From positions 62,001 through 126,000 of the forward strand of contig JAIQZU010000081.1 of assembly GCA_021776915.1 (NCBI GenBank): a stretch of 64,000 nucleotides of DNA. The letters are read 5' to 3'. Positions 10,808-31,526 of the stretch are shown in pieces (position 1 is the stretch's first letter; each line of letters starts with the position of its first letter). Below the pieces are notes generated by a model. The model had not been told where the DNA came from. It did not search any database and saw nothing but the letters and a program-made list of their open reading frames with translations. The stretch comes from Candidatus Scalindua sp. (GTDB lineage: Bacteria > Planctomycetota > Brocadiia > Brocadiales > Scalinduaceae). The translations under genes were made by a program, and so were the position numbers.

Positions 10808-11563
10808 ATGAATGAAAATTATAAGATTCCTATTCTAACATATCACTCTATTGACAATAGTGATTCTGTTATTTCAATTGATACGACAAGCTTTAAAGAC
10901 CAAATGCGTTTTCTTAAAGATTATTTATTTAACGTAATATCGCTAAACGAGGTTGTCATGCATATACGCAAAAAGCAACCTTTTGCGGAAAAGTCTATTG
11001 CAATTACTTTTGACGATGGTTTCAAAAATATATTTTCGGATGCTTTCCCAGTGTTAAAAGAATACGGATTTAATGCAACTGTTTTTTTAACAACAAATTA
11101 TTGTGAAAGATTGAATAATTGGCCTGGCCAGCCAGACTCTATAAAAGCACAGCCGTTGCTTTCCTGGGCCGAAATCAAGGAGATGAGTCAAACCGGAATG
11201 CAGTTTGGAGCGCATACGATGAATCATCCATATTTGACCAGAATCCCTCTCAAGGATGCTGAAAATGAGATTTTATCATCAAAAAAGATTATAGAAGATC
11301 AACTTCAGGAGGAAGTAAAATTTTTTGCCTATCCTTATGGAGATTTTAATACAGATATAGTCAATGTTGTGAATCAATCCTTTGGCGGAGCCTGCTCAAC
11401 AGAATTAGCAATTGCAGATTCTAAAAGCAATCCATTTATTTTGGAGCGTGTTGATATTTTTTATATTAAGTATGGAATGATCTTTAAAAGGCTTTTTACT
11501 CCTTATGTTTCATGTTATTTAAAATCCAGAAGGTTGTTAAGGGATCTAAGAAGATTTTTTTGA
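10808..11563 (+). CDS. NodB-type polysaccharide deacetylase (CE4)
   Basis: The NodB fold is shown by PILTYHSI at the start, the catalytic/metal ITFDDGF motif (Asp69-Asp70 from this start) and the metal-binding HTMNH motif, typical of CE4 deacetylases that remove N-acetyl groups from glycans. I prefer the ATG at 10808. A TTG at 10787 would add seven residues. The protein is of normal length and intact, whereas a second copy at 19.9 kb is only a remnant. The gene lies in line with the GT4 genes. Function as glycan deacetylase is confident, the substrate inferred. Confidence 0.88.
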   Translation: MNENYKIPILTYHSIDNSDSVISIDTTSFKDQMRFLKDYLFNVISLNEVVMHIRKKQPFAEKSIAITFDDGFKNIFSDAFPVLKEYGFNATVFLTTNYCERLNNWPGQPDSIKAQPLLSWAEIKEMSQTGMQFGAHTMNHPYLTRIPLKDAENEILSSKKIIEDQLQEEVKFFAYPYGDFNTDIVNVVNQSFGGACSTELAIADSKSNPFILERVDIFYIKYGMIFKRLFTPYVSCYLKSRRLLRDLRRFF

Positions 11564-11688
11564 AAAACAACAGTAATTATAAACAGAAATTCGTTCCACT
11601 TTTCAGATCCCTTTCAGTTCCCTTCAAGTTTTATCTTAAGCCAGGAATGAATGTCTTATTCATATATTAATCGTATTTACATTCAACT

Positions 11689-12585
11689 GTGACGGACGAC
11701 AAATCCCCAAAAATCTCGATTATTGTTGCTTCAAAAAACGGGCGTCAAACGGTTGAAGATTGTCTATTATCGATTGAAAAACAAAAAGACCGTTCTATAG
11801 AAATTATCGTAGTAGATCAATCAATTGACGGCACATCACAATTCGTTGAAAATAGATTCCCTGATGTCAGATTGATTAAACTTTCAAGACCTGCGTTAAT
11901 TCCGGAGCTCTGGAGTGCAGGCATTGCAGTATCTTCAGGACAGATTATAGCTATTACCATTGCCCAATTTGTACCTGCCTGCAATTGGATTTCCTCGATA
12001 ATCAAATCGCTCCAACCCCCGTATAGCGCTGTCGGTGGGGCTATAGAAAATTCAGATACAGCTTCTCTTTGCGATTGGGCGTTATATTTTTGTCGTTACA
12101 GTAATTATATGCTACCTTTTGCTAAAAGAGAAGTAAACGACATGGCAGGAGATAATGCCGCATATATACGGGATGCATTGGAACCTTATAAAGGTATTTT
12201 TGAAAAAGGATTCTGGGAAACCAAGGTTAATGCCGCAATGATAAAAGATGGGCGTAAAATATTGTTAACCCCAGATATCGTGGCGGTTCATAAAAAGTCA
12301 TTTGGGCTTATTTCTTTTTCAATACAGAGATTTTCGCACGGTTACCATTATGGTAAAGAACGTTTCCCGGATCAAATGATTATTAAAAGGTTTGTCTATA
12401 TATTGGCTTCCCCTCTGATTCCTTTCGTTCACTTTAGCAGAATCTTACAAAGAGTGCTGCAGCGTGGCCGGTATAAAATAAAATTAGCACTTTCACTACC
12501 TGTACTTTTCGTTTTTATCATGTACTGGACTACCGGTGAATTTTGTGGTTATATTTCAGGGATTGCTGAGCCAACAAATAGATAG
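11689..12585 (+). CDS. Family 2 glycosyltransferase with altered active-site motif
   Basis: A 298-residue GT2 protein starting at GTG 11689. The nucleotide-binding region is present (IEIIVVDQSIDGTSQF). It is paralogous to the proteins at 21.5 and 23.5 kb, sharing the GGA(I/V)EN segment, an xDWAxxFxxY segment and a C-terminal membrane-embedded tail ending in a (T/I)GE motif. In the other two, the metal-site position reads EDHC. Here it is IAQF, so the acidic/His residues are lost. GNNVSY of its relatives is also changed to GDNAAY. It may be inactive or use another mechanism. Confidence 0.8.
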   Translation: MTDDKSPKISIIVASKNGRQTVEDCLLSIEKQKDRSIEIIVVDQSIDGTSQFVENRFPDVRLIKLSRPALIPELWSAGIAVSSGQIIAITIAQFVPACNWISSIIKSLQPPYSAVGGAIENSDTASLCDWALYFCRYSNYMLPFAKREVNDMAGDNAAYIRDALEPYKGIFEKGFWETKVNAAMIKDGRKILLTPDIVAVHKKSFGLISFSIQRFSHGYHYGKERFPDQMIIKRFVYILASPLIPFVHFSRILQRVLQRGRYKIKLALSLPVLFVFIMYWTTGEFCGYISGIAEPTNR

Positions 12586-18817: not shown

Positions 18818-19878
18818 ATGGATAAACACCTTTCTTTGACAAGATTTAAGTCTATACACCTGGAAATTACAAATGTGTGTGATTTTACATGTGATTTTTG
18901 CCCGAGTAAAAATCAAAAAAGAGAAAAGGTCTTTATGGAAACATCCCTGGCAAAAAATATTATTCGTGAAATATCTGAAAATAATTTAACTAAATGTGTT
19001 ACGTTCCACATTATGGGCGAACCTCTTTTGCATCCTGATGTTGTGGAACTGTGCCGGTTCGCGGAGGACTCAGGTGTAGCCGTATCGTTGTTTACTAATG
19101 GCGCTCTTCTAAACCAGCAAATGAATAACAGACTTTTTGCGGCAGGCTTAAGCAAGTTGGATGTAAGCTTTAGAACACCAAATGGTTATGCGTTTAAAAA
19201 GAGAATAAACTCTAAGATGCCCACCTTTGAAACGTATTAAGGACAAGATAAAGGATTTGCTGTCTTGTAAAATCGAATTCGGCGGCCAGACGGAAATCTG
19301 TATAAATTTTTTTAAAAAGAGACTTTTATTTGCTTTATTATGTCCTGTAAATACATATCATATTACTGATCAAGTAGATAATATGACTCTGATGAAAGAA
19401 TTACAAAACTATTGCCTTGATAAGTCAGAACAAGTGGGTAAAGACGTGACAAGGTATAAAAAAGTCAGAATTAAACCAGATTCCATTATGGTAGAAATAT
19501 GCAAAAATATATATATCATATAATAAAATGTTTTCCTTTTTTTTATCAGAGAACTATACTAATAGATCTTATTCAAATGCAGTATTTGGCGGATGTGACG
19601 CACTCCGTAGGCATTTTGGAATACTGGCAGATGGCAAAGTAACAACTTGTTGTTTAGATTATAATGGTGAGAACATTGTCGGAAACGTAAGAAGTCAAAA
19701 GCTGATTGATATTTTGGAAACAGATCAAGTAAGATCAATCAGAAGAAATTTTGATAGATATCATCCTCCAACAGAATTATGTAAGAGATGTTTGGGAAGT
19801 CCAAATATATTATTATCATTCGCTAAGCAATTCTCAAGTGTTGGCTCTGATTTAATAAAAAGGATAAAGGCGCGTTAG
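18818..19878 (+). pseudogene. Radical SAM/SPASM protein broken by two frameshifts
   Basis: Three consecutive frames (18818-19240, 19227-19523, 19528-19878) together encode about 350 residues, the length of a radical SAM-SPASM enzyme. The first carries the 4Fe-4S motif CDFTCDFC (Cys21, Cys25, Cys28), GEPLLHPD and TNGALL. The last has a SPASM-like C-terminus (GGCDALRRHFGILADGKVTT, CCLDYNGENIVGN, CKRCLG). Breaks fall near 19227-19240 and 19490-19530, in AT-rich DNA without long homopolymers at the first. Either true decay or assembly errors. I favour decay given the neighbouring remnants. Confidence 0.75.
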
Positions 19879-19920: not shown

Positions 19921-20139
19921 TTGTTGCAGGAAAGTGATTACTCACAAAACTCTGCCAATATTTACCACTCTATCGACGACAGCGGCTCAGTCATCTCAAC
20001 AGCACCTTCATTATTCTGGAAGCAGGTCGAATTTTTGAAGGAAGAAGAATTCCAAACGCTTTCTTTATCTGAGGCCTTGGGCATTATAGAGCAGGGAAAG
20101 CAGTTTTTTCGTGATATGAAAGCATTTTTTGAAAAATGA
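19921..20139 (+). pseudogene. Polysaccharide deacetylase remnant
   Basis: A 72-codon frame reading IYHSIDDSGSVIS, FLKEEEFQTLSLSEALGI matches the first ~65 residues of the intact deacetylase at 10.8 kb (TYHSIDNSDSVIS, FLKDYLFNVISLNEVV). The catalytic DDG and HxxxH regions are missing. It then ends in FFRDMKAFFEK, resembling the last residues of the intact copy (LLRDLRRFF). This looks like a 5' and a 3' end joined after internal loss. The 3' resemblance is short, so this second part is tentative. Confidence 0.7.
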
Positions 20140-21221
20140 ACCTGATAAATAGTAGTATCCGATATGGAAAAGTGGCCTTGAAGGGGTTACTATGTAATAA
20201 GGCTTCAACCCCTCCCTTCCTGGTTTTGTTTATCACATCCGCCTGCAATCTGTCTTGTGGACACTGTTTTTACTGGAAAAAACTCAATCAAAAGGATGAC
20301 CTGACGACTAATGAGATCAAAAAACTCTCTGAGGAGTTGGGCAGTATAGAAAATCTTAACATTACGGGGGGAGAACCATTTACCAGAGAGGATTTCAGTG
20401 AAATATGCCGCCTGTTCATAAACAACAATTCGGTAAAGAAAATCTACGTATCCACGAACGGATTTTTTACAGATCGAACATACTCTCAGGTTAAAAAAGT
20501 TTTGAAAGAGACATCTCTGGACTTACTGGTCATTGAAATATCATTGGATGGTATGGCCGATTATCACAATAAATTGAGAGGGAACGGGGAGTCTTTTCAA
20601 AAAGCGCTTGATACTTACAATATGCTGTCAGAGTTAGGAAAAAGGGACAGGAGATTACAGATTCACGCTAACTCAACGGTAACATCAGAGAATATTGAAG
20701 AGGTTCGACAACTGTCTCATTTTCTTTTTGATCACTGTTCTTCGATTGAACATCATGGTATCGCTTTAATTCGAGATAATTGGAAAGAACAGTCCTTACA
20801 AAAGCCGGCGGCAGAAAAGTACCGGAAGCTTTGCCTCCATATTGAAACGTTATGGAAAATACGCAAAAAGAAACGTGCCGGCTCCCTGGTAGAACCTTTG
20901 TTGCAATATGCCAAATTGGAAACGATCAGGGAGGGACAGCAAGTCATCCCCTGCCTCGCAGGCGTTTTGAGTGCTGTAGTGTACGACAACGGAGATGTCG
21001 GAGTTTGCGAGATTCATAAACCTCTCGGAAATCTGCGGAACAGGAGTTTTTTTGAAATATGGAAGTCACCGGAAGCCCGAATACTTCGAAATGCAATCAG
21101 GGCCAAAAAGTGTTTCTGTACACATGAAATTTCCATGTGGCCTAGTATTGTTTTTCAACCTCTTCAACTAATCAGGGCCATGATTGGAACAACGCTCAAG
21201 AAAAAATTACAGGAAAGTTAA
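20136..21221 (+). CDS. SPASM-domain radical SAM enzyme
   Basis: A 361-residue radical SAM protein. The SAM-binding 4Fe-4S motif is CNLSCGHC (Cys37, Cys41, Cys44) after FITSA, followed by NITGGEPF and STNGFF. The C-terminal region (CLAGVLSAVVYDNGDVGVCE, LGNLRNRSFFEIW, KKCFCTHE) is a SPASM-type auxiliary-cluster domain. Such enzymes in glycan clusters often modify sugars or activate partner proteins. The reaction is unknown. It overlaps the deacetylase remnant by 4 bp and continues directly into the flippase remnant. It is intact, unlike the neighbouring radical SAM pseudogene. Confidence 0.88.
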   Translation: MNLINSSIRYGKVALKGLLCNKASTPPFLVLFITSACNLSCGHCFYWKKLNQKDDLTTNEIKKLSEELGSIENLNITGGEPFTREDFSEICRLFINNNSVKKIYVSTNGFFTDRTYSQVKKVLKETSLDLLVIEISLDGMADYHNKLRGNGESFQKALDTYNMLSELGKRDRRLQIHANSTVTSENIEEVRQLSHFLFDHCSSIEHHGIALIRDNWKEQSLQKPAAEKYRKLCLHIETLWKIRKKKRAGSLVEPLLQYAKLETIREGQQVIPCLAGVLSAVVYDNGDVGVCEIHKPLGNLRNRSFFEIWKSPEARILRNAIRAKKCFCTHEISMWPSIVFQPLQLIRAMIGTTLKKKLQES

Positions 21222-21222
21222 T

Positions 21223-21486
21223 ATGGCAACGATAAAATCTTCTCAATCGGCCAAAGCTATCAGCAACATTGCGGCTTTAGGAAGCAGCGAGATAATCTCT
21301 CAATTCGTGGCTTTTATCGGGTTGACTTGCATTGCCCGCACACTTGGTCCGGAAAGATTCGGCATCATCAGATTTACCTTTATCCTGTGTGGGTGCATCT
21401 TTGGGACAGGAACCGTGAGTATATTAAATCAAATATTGCCAACGATAATCACAGTGTCAATAAGGGATGACAACCCTGAACAATAA
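21223..21486 (+). pseudogene. Wzx-like flippase N-terminal fragment
   Basis: The ATG at 21223 starts 87 codons reading NIAALGSSEIISQFVAFIGL, IARTLGPERFGIIRFTFIL, the typical first two helices of a MOP-family flippase with the LGPERFG motif, then the frame ends at 21486 after about one fifth of a normal 430-residue protein. The next glycosyltransferase starts inside its 3' end at 21467. It lies just behind the radical SAM gene. A truncated remnant, probably non-functional. Confidence 0.75.
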
Positions 21487-23480: not shown

Positions 23481-24398
23481 ATGGAAAATGAAATATGGCC
23501 CGTTCTTTCTATAATTATTGCGGCTCACAACGGAAAAACGGAATTAAATTCGTGTTTGGCGGCCCTGAAGAATCAGTTTTTTCCGGATGAACCTGTTAAT
23601 AAATATGAAATTATAGTTGTAGGGTATTTACATGATGCACGAAAAAAGAGTATCAGCAAGAAATATCCTGAAGTTAAAATATTGCAGGTGGCAACCCCTT
23701 TATCTGTACCTGCTTTAAGATCTATTGGCATTAAGGCTTCGAAAGGAGATATTATAGCCCTTTTGGAGGATCATTGTTTTCCTGCAAACGATTGGATACA
23801 GACAATTTTGTCTAATCATCAAAAGGGATACCAGGTTGTTGGTGGTGCGGTAGAAAATAGCCTTGTGGAACGCTCAATTGACTGGGCAGTATACTTTTTT
23901 GAATACAGCGCCTTTATGAATCCTATATCTGAAGGCACAACTACATCCCTGCCTGGAAACAATGTCAGCTACCGTCGTTCAGCTATGAAATATTTTGAAG
24001 ATCTATTGGATCAAAATCTGTGGGAATTTTTCTGGCACAAGAGACTGATGAAAAATGAAGTTCTTTTATACTCGACTCCGGATATGATTGTATATCATAA
24101 CAGGCCTTTCCATATAATGAGATTCTGGCATCTATCTTTTATACATGGATGCAATCATGCCGTCACAGGTTTGAGCCACTCTAATTTGCAAAAATTACTC
24201 TGGGTTATTTCAACAGTTTTTATTCCTGCCATACTTACATTCAGGATTAGTAGCCGTATTCTTAGAAAACAGAGATATTTGAAGGAGTTTATTAAGGCAT
24301 CTCCAATCATTCTATGGTTTTATATTGGATGGACGGCAGGAGAGTTCATGGGCACATTAACAGGTCGGGTAATTAGCGAAACAGGCTGGGGAGAGTAA
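23481..24398 (+). CDS. Family 2 glycosyltransferase (paralogue of 21.5 kb gene)
   Basis: A 305-residue GT2 protein with LSIIIAAHNGKTELNSCLAAL, YEIIVVGYLHDARKKS, the metal-site motif LLEDHCFPANDW, GGAVENS, LPGNNVSYRRS and a hydrophobic C-terminus ending GWTAGEFMGTLTGR. The equivalent of the usual DD in the nucleotide site is replaced by GYLHD here. It lies 8 bp after the methyltransferase stop and is followed by the remnant of a MocA gene. Together with the methyltransferase and the 21.5-kb paralogue it forms a three-gene unit. Confidence 0.88.
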   Translation: MENEIWPVLSIIIAAHNGKTELNSCLAALKNQFFPDEPVNKYEIIVVGYLHDARKKSISKKYPEVKILQVATPLSVPALRSIGIKASKGDIIALLEDHCFPANDWIQTILSNHQKGYQVVGGAVENSLVERSIDWAVYFFEYSAFMNPISEGTTTSLPGNNVSYRRSAMKYFEDLLDQNLWEFFWHKRLMKNEVLLYSTPDMIVYHNRPFHIMRFWHLSFIHGCNHAVTGLSHSNLQKLLWVISTVFIPAILTFRISSRILRKQRYLKEFIKASPIILWFYIGWTAGEFMGTLTGRVISETGWGE

Positions 24399-24430
24399 AT
24401 TTCAAAATAATTTTATAGAATTACGATAAC

Positions 24431-24644
24431 ACAGAAGAAATGATAGAGAAGACACGGCCTGGTATTATTTCTATTATTTCGCCTCCGGCACAGCATTTCG
24501 ATCACCGCCGGACATCTCTTAAAAAAGGATGTCATGTTTTCTGCGAAAAACTATTCTTTGGTTTCGCCTCGTTAAAGGACGAAAGTCGTAGCCGGCGGAG
24601 AACCTGTTAATACTTTTAAGGCGGTAACAAGAAGTATGATGAAA
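24431..24644 (+). pseudogene. MocA-family oxidoreductase remnant with internal deletion
   Basis: The DNA from 24431 matches the intact gene at 27154-28230: TRPGIISIISPPAQHFDH and KKGCHVFCEK match intact TRPDIVSIITPPAQHFEH and KQGCHVFCEK, about 75-80% at the base level by eye. It then jumps to intact positions about 27970-28095 (CTCGTTAAAGG, CCTGTTAATACTTTTAAGGC, GTAACAAG). The intact gene carries the direct repeat AAAGCCGTTT at 27441-27450 and 27966-27975, exactly at the deletion ends. A second small deletion occurs near the 3' part. It is non-functional. The next gene starts inside its tail. Confidence 0.88.
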
Positions 24645-25364
24645 ACCTTCAGCCAGACTGAATATGGAAAGAGCCGTGTTGCAGTTGTGATTCTGGCAAA
24701 GAACGAAGAGAAGACTATAGGTAAAATCATTAATGATACTGCGAGATTTGTCCATGAGGTAATTGTCATGGATGGCCATTCAAGAGATGAAACTGCTAAC
24801 TGTGCAAGAAGTGCTGGTGCTATGGTATACACTGACGATGGCAAGGGAAAAGGATCTGCGATGCGAATGAGCCTTAAATTAACTACCGCAGATATTATAG
24901 TATTCATGGACGCTGATGGCTCCCACGATCCCAACGATATTCCCAAGTTAGTGTTGCCTGTTGTGAGAAACAAAACAGATCTTTGTGTGGGAAGTCGCTT
25001 CTCTGGTGGCAGCGATGAGCTTTCCGTCAATGTTGGTCAATTGATCCGTACCTTTGGGAATCTTTCAATGAACATTGCCATAAATAAAAGATGGCACGTT
25101 AATCTTACGGACACCCTAAACGGGCTAAGGGCAATCAAACGTCAAGCTGCGTTGTCGATAGGTCTCAGGGAAGACATTCATACCATTGAACAGGAGATAG
25201 TGATGAAAATGCTTAGTCATGGTTACCGTGTAATAAATGTTCCTACCCATGAATATGCACGCAAGTTTGGCCGGAGCCATATCAATATTTGGAAGGAATG
25301 GCCTAGATTCGTCTGGTGTTTGATTATAAATCTTATTCACAAAGAACGAATAAACCATTTGTAA
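24636..25364 (+). CDS. Dolichyl-phosphate mannose synthase-like GT2
   Basis: A 242-residue GT2 enzyme of the DPM1/polyprenyl-phosphate sugar transferase type: VAVVILAKNEEKTIGKIIND, VIVMDGHSRDETA, DXD motif VFMDADGSHDP and LCVGSRFSGGSDE. The C-terminus has only a modest hydrophobic segment. Such enzymes charge a polyprenyl phosphate with a sugar that a GT-C enzyme then uses. The next gene is a GT-C enzyme at a gap of 1 bp, which fits. The first codons overlap the MocA remnant, so the start may have been created by that deletion. ATG 24639 is an alternative. Confidence 0.87.
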   Translation: MMKTFSQTEYGKSRVAVVILAKNEEKTIGKIINDTARFVHEVIVMDGHSRDETANCARSAGAMVYTDDGKGKGSAMRMSLKLTTADIIVFMDADGSHDPNDIPKLVLPVVRNKTDLCVGSRFSGGSDELSVNVGQLIRTFGNLSMNIAINKRWHVNLTDTLNGLRAIKRQAALSIGLREDIHTIEQEIVMKMLSHGYRVINVPTHEYARKFGRSHINIWKEWPRFVWCLIINLIHKERINHL

Positions 25365-25365
25365 G

Positions 25366-27144
25366 ATGTTTAGATTACAGAGTGTTATAGAAAGATTACG
25401 ATCTATGAGATGGTGCGGAGGGAGTTTGATTCTTGGAATCTTACTCGTCTTGATTGGGATATTCTTTCCACGAGATTGGTACGACACCTTACCGAAACAA
25501 GAGGACTTACCGGCTCCTTCAATTAAAGGTGTTACCCTGTTTCAGTATTCTATAGTTATTGAGGGCTTATTATTTATTTGGATTTCTCTAAAGCGCTGGA
25601 CTTTAACACGTACCTCTGAAGCAAACAGGTTATCTATCACTGCAGTGTCTGAAGATGATGAACTTATTAGTAAACAAATAGCTCTCTGGCTTCTGGCGGC
25701 CATAACGCTATTGGCATTCATATTACGTCTAGTAAATTTGAACTTAGACCTTTGGCTTGATGAAATTACCCCAATTATGCGCTATCGTCACTTTTCGGCG
25801 TTACAGGTTGTAGGGAGCTACCTCAGCTCCAATAATCATCTGTTTAACACGCTACTACTTAAGATTACCATTGCTGTTTTCGGGGAAAAAGAATGGTCCA
25901 TTCGTCTTCCGGCTGTAATCTTTGGCACAGCCACAATTCCTGCGATATATTGGGTCGCTCGAATAGTAATGACACGGCTGGTAAGTTTAAGTATCGCACT
26001 TTTGTTGGCGGTGTCCTATCATCACATCTTCTTCTCTCAAAATGCTAAAGGATATTCGGCGTATCTGTTTTTTTCATTGCTTTCGTCAGGACTGCTTGTG
26101 AAAGGCTTACAGATGGATTTGGTTAGAATTTGGATATTTTACATCATAACAATGTTTTTTAACTTTGCCTCGCTTCTTAACAGCGTGTTCGTGTTTATCT
26201 CCCATATTTTCACCAGTGGTGTCTTTCTACTCATTTTGAGTCAACGGGGAGCGTTCCCGATGCTTCTTTTAAGACGTCTCACAGGAGTATTCCTGGTAAC
26301 GGGCTTGCTGGGTTTTCAATTGTACTCTTTGATTCTGCCTCAGGCATATGAGGTTATACATATGGTCTATACCAATTTGGCTACTGGCTATCGGATGTTT
26401 TCATGGGAGTTATTAAAGGAAATTATTCGCGGCATATCTGCCGGCTTTGGGTCAGGTATACTCTTCGGAGTTTTGCCTTTTCTCATAGTTAGTATCGTTG
26501 GTTTTGTTGCCCTATTTAAAAGACAGTGGGTTTTAATCATGTCGCTAACTATGCCCGGAATATTTATGGCTCTTTATCTGATTGTAAAGAGCCTGACTTT
26601 TTCTCCACGACACTTTCTGATTATTCTTCCACTTGTCATCATTTCAGCAGTAAATGGTATTTTTATCGTCGCCAAGTTTGTTGCAAAGCCCTTGAGGAAA
26701 AACGAAAAAATATTTACAGCAAGGGTTGGTATAGCGTTGTTATTAATTGTATGCATTATATCTCTAGCATCACTTAAATATTATTACTCAACCCCCAAGC
26801 AGGCCTATCGATCTTCTATTAAGTACCTGGAAGCAAAGCGCAAACCAGGCGAGATTGTTATTGTAATCCATATCGCAGAAGCAGGTTATCGTTATTATGG
26901 AGAACGTCTCGGAATTAATCTTAATGAAGGTAAGGACTATTTCTTTGTCCGTACAATAGAATCCTTTAATGAAGTATTTTGTTCTCACGGAAAAATAGGT
27001 TGTTTTTTGGTAACCACTTTTCCACGAGCTCTTAATATTAACCACCCTGACCTTGAGGAGCGAATTAAAAAAGATTGGACTGTGATCAAAACGTTTCCGG
27101 GAACTATTGGAGATGGGCAAATTTCAGTTTGGAAGAAACTCTAA
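25366..27144 (+). CDS. GT-C type (PMT/ArnT-like) membrane glycosyltransferase
   Basis: A 592-residue protein with about 12 hydrophobic segments. The first external loop has the acidic motif of the family (LRLVNLNLDLWLDE, Asp/Glu pair in the DE motif) followed by helices and SLSYHH-like regions, as in lipid-phosphate-sugar dependent GT39/GT83 enzymes. A non-membrane tail (~100 residues) follows. Adjacent to the DPM1-like gene by 1 bp, it probably uses that gene's polyprenyl-sugar product. Acceptor unknown (lipid, glycan or protein). Family call good, exact family number uncertain. Confidence 0.8.
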   Translation: MFRLQSVIERLRSMRWCGGSLILGILLVLIGIFFPRDWYDTLPKQEDLPAPSIKGVTLFQYSIVIEGLLFIWISLKRWTLTRTSEANRLSITAVSEDDELISKQIALWLLAAITLLAFILRLVNLNLDLWLDEITPIMRYRHFSALQVVGSYLSSNNHLFNTLLLKITIAVFGEKEWSIRLPAVIFGTATIPAIYWVARIVMTRLVSLSIALLLAVSYHHIFFSQNAKGYSAYLFFSLLSSGLLVKGLQMDLVRIWIFYIITMFFNFASLLNSVFVFISHIFTSGVFLLILSQRGAFPMLLLRRLTGVFLVTGLLGFQLYSLILPQAYEVIHMVYTNLATGYRMFSWELLKEIIRGISAGFGSGILFGVLPFLIVSIVGFVALFKRQWVLIMSLTMPGIFMALYLIVKSLTFSPRHFLIILPLVIISAVNGIFIVAKFVAKPLRKNEKIFTARVGIALLLIVCIISLASLKYYYSTPKQAYRSSIKYLEAKRKPGEIVIVIHIAEAGYRYYGERLGINLNEGKDYFFVRTIESFNEVFCSHGKIGCFLVTTFPRALNINHPDLEERIKKDWTVIKTFPGTIGDGQISVWKKL

Positions 27145-27153
27145 CTTTACACA

Positions 27154-28230
27154 TTGAGAACTAAAATTGCTATTATTGGCTTAGGAGCAGCGGCACATAA
27201 CATACACTTGCCTGCTTATGCAATGATCGGGGATAAAGCTACTGTGGTTGGCGGTTGTGATATCAACGAGAAGGCAAGGGATAGAGCCGGTAAGGAATGG
27301 AATATACAGGCAGTTTACGATAACGCAGATGAAATGATAGACAAGACAAGGCCTGATATTGTTTCTATCATTACGCCTCCTGCACAACATTTTGAGCATT
27401 GCCAGATAGCTCTTAAGCAAGGATGTCATGTTTTCTGTGAAAAGCCGTTTATGGAAAATCTGGAACAGGTAGACAAAATTATTGAAATGGAAGATCATGC
27501 CAAACGCCATGCCGTCGTTAATAACGAGTTCAGATATATGCAAATCCATTCCAAGGCTAAAGAACTAATAGGAAAACCAGAATTTGGAGAGTTGCAATAC
27601 CTTCACGCATGGCAAACCTTCATCCCAACTGACCATACAGAAGCTGGTTGGAGGAGTCAATTGGAAAAGAGGGTTTGCTTTGAATTTGGCAATCACGTCT
27701 TTGATCTTATACGGTTTTTCTTTGGGAAAACACCCACAAAAATATTCGCACATATGCCCAAGCCGGTACCAGGCATTAAGACTGATTTGATAAACGTTGT
27801 ATCTGTCGAATTTGATGACGGACGCGGTGCTTCCTTTATTTTAGATCGACTTTGTAAAGGGCCGGAACGTTACTTAGACGTTCGTCTGGATGGTGATTAT
27901 GCCTCTATACATACTTTTATTGGTGGAGAACTCAGGTGTCAGATTGGTATGCATACGAGAGAACGAAAGCCGTTTCTTGATTTTAGTCTCGTTAAAGGTG
28001 GAAAGGCTGAGCTGCAGGTTGGTAACAGATCGAGAGTCATAGCCAAGGATCCTCTTAATCCTTTTAAAGCAGCAACAAGTGTGCTGTTTTCCAGATTTAT
28101 AGATGCTATTGAAAATAAAATTGTACCTCCGTGCAATGCCAAAGATAGCCGAGACACATTAGCCCTAATTCTTGCTGCTTATGAATCTGCTACTTCCGGA
28201 TTGCCGGTTGTGCTTAGTAATTGTAACTGA
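27154..28230 (+). CDS. Gfo/Idh/MocA-family NAD(P)-dependent sugar oxidoreductase
   Basis: A 358-residue oxidoreductase with an N-terminal Rossmann motif (IAIIGLGAAAHNIHLPAY, GCDIN) and the family EKP motif (CEKPFMEN) with the catalytic-region FRYMQIH and GNHVFDLIRF. It starts with TTG at 27154, 9 bp after the GT-C gene. Members oxidise or reduce sugars such as UDP-GlcNAc derivatives or inositols, here probably a glycan precursor. Its degraded relative lies at 24.4 kb. Substrate unknown. Confidence 0.9.
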   Translation: MRTKIAIIGLGAAAHNIHLPAYAMIGDKATVVGGCDINEKARDRAGKEWNIQAVYDNADEMIDKTRPDIVSIITPPAQHFEHCQIALKQGCHVFCEKPFMENLEQVDKIIEMEDHAKRHAVVNNEFRYMQIHSKAKELIGKPEFGELQYLHAWQTFIPTDHTEAGWRSQLEKRVCFEFGNHVFDLIRFFFGKTPTKIFAHMPKPVPGIKTDLINVVSVEFDDGRGASFILDRLCKGPERYLDVRLDGDYASIHTFIGGELRCQIGMHTRERKPFLDFSLVKGGKAELQVGNRSRVIAKDPLNPFKAATSVLFSRFIDAIENKIVPPCNAKDSRDTLALILAAYESATSGLPVVLSNCN

Positions 28231-28262
28231 CTGATAACAATCAATTTTAGCAATACGTTAAT

Positions 28263-29324
28263 ATGACAAATAGTTCTGCAAAAATTGAATCTAATAATAC
28301 CTCATACCATTCAATGGAAACAAGACGTTTAAAAATTGGTATTGTTGGAGCCGGCCTAATGGGGCGCTGGCATGCAAAAGCAGCAAGGCGTGCGGGGGGA
28401 CGTATAAATGCAATAGTGGATTCAAATATTGAAACTTCAAGCCGTCTGGCCGGTAAATACTCTTATGCAAAAAGTTTTTCTTCAGTCGAACGAATGTTGA
28501 ATCAGACTAAAATAGACGTGCTTCACATCTGTACTCCTCTGGATACTCATGTTGATATTGCAGAACTTGCACTCGATGCAGGGATTAATGTGGTTATTGA
28601 AAAACCGATTACGCCAACGGCTGCTGAAACTGAACGAATTTTAAAGCAAGCAGCAAATAATGGTGTAATTATATGCGCAGTCCATCAATTCCTCTTTCAG
28701 GAAGGAGTACAAAAGGCTACGAGATTATTATCCCAAATCGGTAGAGTGATTCATATAGAGAGTACTATTTGTTCAGCAGGAGCCAGCGGTTTTGCTGGAA
28801 GACAGCGTGATTTGATTGCGGCAGATATCCTGCCTCATCCACTTTCATTAATGCAGTTTTTTGTGTCAGGAGGTGTTTCTGAAAAAGGTTGGATGATGGA
28901 ACGAGTTGACTGTGGAGAATTTCGAGCTTTTGCAAAGACATCGCAAATTAGCTTATCTATTTTTATAAGCATGAATGCACGTCCCACAGAATGTTCCCTG
29001 AAGATTGTGGGAACAGAGGGAACAATCCATATAGACATGTTTCATGGATATTCATTTTTAGAATCAGGAAAGATTTCGCGTACGCATAAAATCTTACATC
29101 CATTTTTATTTTCTGCCAGCAAGTTTTTTTCAGCTACCGGAAACCTTAGTCGTCGTATTGTTCAACGCGAGTTAGCCTCCCCAGGCCTTTATAAAATGAT
29201 TAATTCTTTTTACAGGTCCGTACTAACACATAGCAAATGCCCGATTTCACGTGAAGACATACTCGCTGTGGCCATAGTTCGTGACAAGTTGTTGCAGAGT
29301 GTGGGACTTGATAAAGTATTCTGA
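28263..29324 (+). CDS. Gfo/Idh/MocA-family oxidoreductase, second copy
   Basis: A 353-residue MocA-type oxidoreductase: Rossmann motif KIGIVGAGLMGRWHAKAARR, IVDSN, and the EKP motif (IEKPITPTAAETE), then VCAVHQFLFQEG and DILPHPLSL in the substrate domain. It follows the first MocA gene by 32 bp. The pair of non-identical MocA proteins could act in sequence on one sugar (for example a dehydrogenase step then a reductase step). That is inference. An N-terminal extension of ~22 residues precedes the Rossmann strand. Confidence 0.88.
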   Translation: MTNSSAKIESNNTSYHSMETRRLKIGIVGAGLMGRWHAKAARRAGGRINAIVDSNIETSSRLAGKYSYAKSFSSVERMLNQTKIDVLHICTPLDTHVDIAELALDAGINVVIEKPITPTAAETERILKQAANNGVIICAVHQFLFQEGVQKATRLLSQIGRVIHIESTICSAGASGFAGRQRDLIAADILPHPLSLMQFFVSGGVSEKGWMMERVDCGEFRAFAKTSQISLSIFISMNARPTECSLKIVGTEGTIHIDMFHGYSFLESGKISRTHKILHPFLFSASKFFSATGNLSRRIVQRELASPGLYKMINSFYRSVLTHSKCPISREDILAVAIVRDKLLQSVGLDKVF

Positions 29325-29449
29325 AGAATGGATTCTAAGCCGTCGCTGGTGTTAATCAAACTAATATACACGCCAGTAGCAATACGACATATTTCTTTCT
29401 CCCATCACAAGGATGATAGAAGTGTTTTTAAATGTAGGAAGTCTTTTAA

Positions 29450-30379
29450 TTGGATAAATCGCCAATAATCAAAGATACTGCGCAATTTAAGCTTGATGAT
29501 TCCCGCAGTTATGATTCTTATGCTGAGGATTATCATCGTTGTGTGGGTAGACTATGTGAACCATTTGTCAGGCAGATGGTAACACTTGCTCATTTGAAAC
29601 AGGGGCAGAGAGTTCTTGACGTGGGCACAGGCACAGGGATTGTAGCTAACTATGCTGCAAAATTACTTGACAATTCCGGCTCGGTAGTTGGGATTGATTT
29701 GTCGGAAGGAATGCTTAAGATATGTGCTAGTACTGCAAAGAAAGAAGAGCTTACCAATGTACAGTTCCTCCGCATGGATACAGAGAACCTTGCCTTACCT
29801 GCAGAATCATTCGATTCAGTTTTTTCTATGAATGCTATTGACCATTTTCCTGATGCGGCACAAGCATTAAAAGAAATATATCGATGTTTAAAACCGGGAG
29901 GCCATCTTGTGGTTGCAATAGGCTGCAGAATACCTCCGTGGGGCGGCGGCCGCCTTAAGGCATATTGTGTTGGAATTAACAGGAAAGTTAAACAATATTT
30001 TCAGCCTCATATTTATGCCCCAAATTTCATTTTAAATTTCATGCATAGACATTTGGGGCATCTCCCCGCCCCTCCACATTCAAGTTGGGGCGGTGCGAAT
30101 CCTGGAAAAAATATATTCACGCTTATCAAGGTTGCAGGTTTTGACATAAAGGGTGTGTCCTGGAGGCATAATATGATTCCTATTCAATCGACAGAAGAAT
30201 TTTGGAACTCTCAAACAGCAATTGTTACAGAAGTTAGGAAACGACTTATAAATGCCGATCCGGATACAACGAATTCCCTTTATTTAGAATTTAAAAATTT
30301 AGCAGACACAGCATTATCCCGCGGAGGCAGATTGTACTATTGTGGGGCTGTTTTTATGATATGTGCAATACGAAAATAA
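29450..30379 (+). CDS. UbiE-like SAM-dependent methyltransferase
   Basis: A 309-residue class I methyltransferase, TTG start at 29450. Motif I is VLDVGTGTGIVANYAAK, followed by GIDLSEGML, the post-I motif FDSVFSMNAIDHFPD and LKPGGHLVVAIG. It is the second methyltransferase of the locus and sits between the MocA pair and a GT4 gene. Substrate unknown. Methylation of a sugar or lipid carrier of the glycan fits the neighbourhood. Confidence 0.87.
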   Translation: MDKSPIIKDTAQFKLDDSRSYDSYAEDYHRCVGRLCEPFVRQMVTLAHLKQGQRVLDVGTGTGIVANYAAKLLDNSGSVVGIDLSEGMLKICASTAKKEELTNVQFLRMDTENLALPAESFDSVFSMNAIDHFPDAAQALKEIYRCLKPGGHLVVAIGCRIPPWGGGRLKAYCVGINRKVKQYFQPHIYAPNFILNFMHRHLGHLPAPPHSSWGGANPGKNIFTLIKVAGFDIKGVSWRHNMIPIQSTEEFWNSQTAIVTEVRKRLINADPDTTNSLYLEFKNLADTALSRGGRLYYCGAVFMICAIRK

Positions 30380-30401
30380 TACTAATTAACGTTAATAAAG
30401 A

Positions 30402-31526
30402 ATGATCCTGGGAGTAAACGTAATACGGCTTACAAGGCCATTTACCGGAGTTGGACGGTATATTGAGTGTGTGTTGAAGGAATGGAGCCAAATGGATATC
30501 CCTTTTGAGAAAATCATACTCTACACCCATACTCCATTAAATCAGGATCGGGTGGTATTTCCCCTTGACCGTTACCAGTGCGAAATCTTTGGGTCAAAAC
30601 TTCCTGATCCTTTATGGGAATGGATGGCTTTGAGGAAAAAGGCAGATAAAGATAAAATAGATGTGCTATTCTGTCCTTCTTATACCATACCAATAGGTTA
30701 TCAGGGAAAATGTGTGGTTTTCAATCATGGGCCTGCAGAAAATACAACGTTGTCTTTTCAATGGTGGAGATCAAAGGCTTATGAAAGGTTATATAGATAC
30801 AGCGCCCATAGAGCAAACAAAGTATTAGCCAACTCTTATTCTGTTAGCAAACGTCTAATAAATGTTTATGGTGTTTCACCAAACAAGATTAAAGTAACGT
30901 ATCTTGCCTCCAGCAATGCCCTTCAGCCTATTTCAGATAAGCGGCTTATCGAAGAAACCAGGAATAGATATCTGAATGGAAATCATTCATATATATTATT
31001 TGTCGGAAAATTAGCAAGACGTCATTATATTCCGAACTTACTTCAGGCTTTTGCTGAACTTTATCAGGAAAATACTTTTCCTCATAAACTTCTTATTGTA
31101 GGCCCTGACTATCTTAATTTAAATATTCCAAAACTTGCAAAAAATCTAAATGTAGAGAAATCGGTCGTTCATATACCTTATGTAAGCCATTTGAATCTTC
31201 CAGCATTATACAATGCCGCAGAATTTTTTGTATTCCCGGCATCGGAAGCTGAAGGTTTTGGATTACCGGTTATTGAGGCTATGGCATGCGGAACACCTGT
31301 CTTAACTGTAAACCAGGGTAGTCTGTCTGAATTTGCACCAGGCGCATCACATCTGGTCAAAAATAGTTCAGTTGAACAACTTAAATTGGGTTTACGAGAA
31401 ATGATTTTTAATCCTATTATGCGAAATGAGCTAAAAGAAAAAGGATTAGAGCGAGCAAAGTCTATAACCTGGAAAAAGACTGCCGATATAACAATGGATT
31501 TACTCTGGAAAGTAGCGAATGCCTAA
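30402..31526 (+). CDS. Family 4 glycosyltransferase
   Basis: A 374-residue GT-B enzyme beginning ILGVNVIRLTRPFTGVGRYIECVL (TGVGRY glycine-loop) with LFVGKLARRHYIPNL in the donor domain and the EX7E motif (EGFGLPVIE) followed by [14 protein letters not shown]. The start is close (22 bp) behind the methyltransferase stop. Typical retaining GT4, probably mannosyl/rhamnosyl-like, but sugar cannot be read from the sequence. Confidence 0.92.
   Translation: MILGVNVIRLTRPFTGVGRYIECVLKEWSQMDIPFEKIILYTHTPLNQDRVVFPLDRYQCEIFGSKLPDPLWEWMALRKKADKDKIDVLFCPSYTIPIGYQGKCVVFNHGPAENTTLSFQWWRSKAYERLYRYSAHRANKVLANSYSVSKRLINVYGVSPNKIKVTYLASSNALQPISDKRLIEETRNRYLNGNHSYILFVGKLARRHYIPNLLQAFAELYQENTFPHKLLIVGPDYLNLNIPKLAKNLNVEKSVVHIPYVSHLNLPALYNAAEFFVFPASEAEGFGLPVIEAMACGTPVLTVNQGSLSEFAPGASHLVKNSSVEQLKLGLREMIFNPIMRNELKEKGLERAKSITWKKTADITMDLLWKVANA

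Follow-up and report, generated by a model that had tools for sequence, protein, structure and literature searches.

The 64,000-nucleotide stretch of Candidatus Scalindua DNA analyzed here (the window) carries, in a surface-sugar gene cluster, a dead fragment of a Gfo/Idh/MocA-type oxidoreductase gene at 24421-24631, with an intact relative 2.9 kb downstream (Table 1). That this remnant is real is clear from its alignment, and that the dead gene has undergone an internal deletion is well supported. The best overall explanation, to which we assign a probability of roughly two in three, is that the remnant belongs to a third lineage of MocA-type genes and that a single deletion of ~525 bp, most likely between short direct repeats, removed its middle.

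The remnant comprises three collinear pieces matching the intact gene on the same strand. Homology of the 5' piece to the intact gene is beyond doubt (E = 2.4e-30), the ungapped alignment of 24421-24549 with 27315-27443 being 84% identical. The 3' pieces are weaker, yet well above shuffled controls with two scoring schemes: the jump-alignment score is 30, with none of 60 shuffles exceeding 15, and an independent score is 61.9, with 43 the highest value among 2000 dinucleotide shuffles. Arm 2 was also recovered as an independent ungapped repeat, and arm 3 is identical at 27 of 33 positions to the homologue in the Planctomycetota MAG MohnsGC08_bin191 (L033). In a plain local alignment the 3' part lay near background (1 of 486 random windows scored higher), because such an alignment leaves the 28-nt gap before arm 3 unbridged. 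Relative to the intact gene, ~526 bp are missing between arms 1 and 2 and 28 bp between arms 2 and 3, and ~20% of the gene survives.

The collinear arms, including those of the 3' part, agree with a preliminary description of this DNA, which had, however, placed the remnant at 24431-24644 and proposed that it retains both ends of the gene. The second proposal fails: the homology extends from about codon 54 to about codon 309 of the 358, such that the first ~54 and the last ~49 codons are missing. The flanks (24361-24420 and 24632-24700) have no similarity to the missing gene ends, with shuffles reaching the observed score in 13-68% of cases; instead, one flank holds the end of a glycosyltransferase gene and the other the beginning of a second. 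Besides being hollowed, the gene has thus been truncated on its two outer sides, and the earlier picture of a gene emptied from inside, although right with respect to the internal deletion, is incomplete.

Table 1. Coordinates in the window of the remnant, its intact relative, the repeat copies and the adjoining genes.
Feature	Position	Strand	Details
Family 2 glycosyltransferase gene	23481-24398	+	PF00535 E=7.5e-14; ends 22 nt before remnant
Remnant arm 1	24421-24543	+	Intact 27315-27437, codons about 54-95, middle of Rossmann domain; 104/123 identical, gap-free
Remnant arm 2	24544-24598	+	Intact 27964-28018; 38/55 identical; contains 49-nt ungapped repeat D2, 71%
Deletion junction zone	24544-24561	+	Aligns about equally well to both breakpoints
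Remnant arm 3	24599-24631	+	Intact 28047-28079, codons about 298-309; 26/33 identical past 28-nt gap
Family 2 glycosyltransferase gene	24636-25364	+	ORF; PF00535 E=1.5e-21; ATG 24636, 4 nt past last homologous base of remnant
Intact Gfo/Idh/MocA family oxidoreductase gene	27154-28230	+	358 aa; PF01408 E=4.5e-24, PF22725 E=1e-11, PF02894 E=1e-8
AAAGCCGTTT, first copy	27441-27450	+	Codes KPF of EKPF motif
AAAGCCGTTT, second copy	27966-27975	+	525 bp downstream of first copy, same codon phase; codes KPF

In the remnant the reading frame continues through the junction (24440-24610) before it ends, giving an ORF of 56 residues that matches the Pfam PF01408 (Rossmann domain) profile at positions 58-93, and the EKPF motif has become EKLF. 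The distribution of substitutions over codon positions 1/2/3 is 4/2/3 for remnant-specific changes, compared with 3/1/12 in the two intact copies together; this shift is suggestive only, not being significant with 25 changes (Fisher p = 0.087). Collinear homology to the family together with the loss of essential parts identifies the remnant as a pseudogene.

The ~526-bp junction was analyzed in detail by scoring single deletions with breakpoints near the junction against the remnant, with the intact gene standing in for the parent. The preliminary description correctly reported a 10-bp sequence, AAAGCCGTTT, at both edges of the missing segment in the intact gene. On the + strand of the window AAAGCCGTTT occurs at these two sites only, and the intact gene has no exact 10-mer direct repeat other than this pair, which sits at the junction. 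The accompanying claim, that the remnant jumps from one copy to the other, holds for the large gap but not to the base: at the presumed surviving repeat the remnant reads AAAACTATTC, not AAAGCCGTTT, and the deletion products that tie for the best score have net losses of 526-527 bp, their first deleted base lying at any position from 27438 to 27455. A net loss of 526 bp fits best; the exact repeat-to-repeat deletion of 525 bp scores 3 points below the best and requires a further 1-nt loss, which would fit a T run in arm 2. Slippage or annealing between the repeats, as earlier proposed, is nonetheless plausible, and deletion between repeats is the best candidate mechanism, since chance would rarely place a repeat of at least 10 bp at a junction of this kind: among 20,001 random junction zones matched in size and drawn from the coding sequence of the window, about 1e-4 (i.e. 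~1/10,000) have microhomology of that length or more. With the neighboring gene used as a stand-in for the parent, it is probable that the internal deletion arose between two short identical sequences. Given that 525 bp corresponds to 175 codons, the first deletion product would have stayed in frame.

The alternative that weighs most against the repeat mechanism is that the remnant is real, but that the internal deletion was illegitimate, with breakpoints just outside the 10-bp repeat, which would then reflect a coincidence of two K-P-F codon triplets. Consistent with this possibility, a deletion of 527 bp that begins outside the repeat, at 27455, ties for the best score, and some exact 10-mer repeat is present in about 47% of codon-shuffled versions of the intact gene. 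The L033 homologue, whose distance from the remnant equals that of the intact gene, reads AAAGCCGTTT at the first site and GAAAATGCCTTTC at the second, i.e. it is without the second exact copy; in more distant relatives the second site encodes RRPY (L035) or KRPF (L040). The improbability of finding such a repeat at the junction by chance argues in the other direction and, on balance, we regard an illegitimate deletion as rather unlikely.

With respect to the second, shorter deletion that was described earlier, the 28-nt shortfall is evident whether the remnant is compared with the intact gene or with the L033 homologue, although more than one placement fits, leaving its position ambiguous. 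No repeat of note was seen at its edges, as read from the alignment.

The intact gene is not the source of the remnant. In a three-way comparison over 116 bases, the remnant differs from the intact gene at 19 positions and from the L033 homologue at 19, whereas the latter two differ from each other at 18. These near-equal distances imply that the intact gene is neither the parent nor a recent sister of the remnant, and the three sequences represent about equally old lineages. The comparison of other genomes, which the preliminary description had suggested for finding a complete second gene, yielded none: nothing above about 34% identity was found in the 59 nearest genomes and the single match among 392 sampled genomes of the phylum was at 33%. 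The genome collection contains a single close relative, L033 (at 78% protein identity), in which one copy matches strongly, and all matches in the plasmids searched were below 60% identity. Within the same genome there is no parent copy elsewhere, the matches being the remnant and the intact gene only.

These comparisons also bear on the possibility of an assembly artefact, i.e. that the remnant is a chimeric or collapsed stretch from a strain variant of the intact gene. Although the genome is in 89 contigs and its estimated contamination is 3.6%, a chimera built from the present intact gene would match it exactly, whereas the remnant differs by 16% in arm 1 and by more in the other arms; further, the remnant has no other match in the genome and is bounded by neighboring genes on both sides. 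We thus consider an artefact very improbable. Retention of the remnant for a function, either as a leader or spacer for the downstream glycosyltransferase or as a homology patch guiding recombination between glycan-locus variants, might be argued from the 84% identity of arm 1 and from the purine-rich AAGGCGGTAACAAGAAG just ahead of the ATG at 24636, but is the least credible of the explanations considered, given the broken reading frame and motif and that no conservation of the remnant was found in the nearest genomes, the phylum sample or the genome collection.

The favored history, in which the remnant derives from a third MocA-type lineage by deletion between repeats, may be envisaged as follows. 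The remnant would be a non-functional leftover in a mosaic surface-glycan locus, and its outer ends would have been lost where the neighboring glycosyltransferase genes joined it, or through deletions there. Its middle would have been lost in a single deletion of ~525 bp, most likely by slipped mispairing or annealing at two short direct repeats similar to the two AAAGCCGTTT copies in the intact relative, which presupposes that the parent carried such a repeat. The second loss of ~28 bp, together with single-base insertions or deletions and substitutions, would have occurred afterwards.

The setting of the remnant is itself a patchwork. The L033 locus and the window have blocks in common (window 10829-12564, 27159-28217, 28318-29332 and 29363-30568) with 76-83% DNA identity but in a different arrangement. 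Tandem duplication of the upstream glycosyltransferase gene together with a MocA gene, as in the L033 arrangement, was considered and rejected as a source of the remnant, because the counterpart of that glycosyltransferase gene in the window lies at 11689-12585, not beside the remnant. The same two MocA-type genes are also paired in an Acidobacteria MAG (L035), which carries a mannosyltransferase-like gene and a family 4-type glycosyltransferase as well; comparison of L035 8001-15414 with window 25366-31526 reveals that the tandem MocA-type genes, the mannosyltransferase-like gene and the glycosyltransferase recur, though in a different order. This recurring set is a glycan cassette common to different phyla.

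Other damaged genes were observed upstream. A radical SAM/SPASM gene at 18818-19878, which is homologous over its full length to L033 10561-11637, is split by frameshifts such that its Radical_SAM and SPASM domains are in separate ORFs, and has a G+C content of 33.8% compared with 40.1% for the window. At 19921-20139 there is an N-terminal fragment of a polysaccharide deacetylase-like gene, of which about 50 residues match L033 6172-6939 and which leads into the beginning of the next radical SAM gene. The tail of this fragment weakly resembles the C terminus of the 10787-11563 gene (p = 0.06), with no resemblance to that of the L033 gene, and it is possible that a C-terminal end has been retained. 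The ORF at 21184-21486, which matches the Polysacc_synt flippase profile at positions 3-41 below the cut-off and overlaps the start of a glycosyltransferase gene at 21467, is probably another truncated gene. In a mosaic glycan locus with other dead pieces just upstream, a decayed fragment lying between exchanged genes is to be expected.

The overall results reveal ordinary gene decay in a mosaic glycan locus. They provide one clear case of stepwise gene erosion next to an intact relative and illustrate the mosaic nature of the locus, while leaving the current understanding of gene decay unchanged. With respect to the Gfo/Idh/MocA family (PF01408 with PF22725/PF02894), the intact neighbor is a full member, whereas in the remnant part of the Rossmann domain survives, but the nucleotide-binding start, the EKPF motif and most of the C-terminal domain are gone. 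A known parallel is provided by the recA remnants of Calyptogena clam symbionts, in which the gene was lost by successive deletions leaving recognizable pieces, the larger deletions being ascribed to illegitimate recombination or to replication slippage without RecA (PMC3202245). Unlike in the clam symbionts, the genome studied here is not a reduced symbiont genome, being 3.79 Mb, an intact related gene lies close by, and the deletions are not ordered by a series of relatives. Despite these differences, the MocA remnant resembles the clam-symbiont recA (PMC3202245) in that internal sequence has been lost, with recognizable pieces of the gene left behind.
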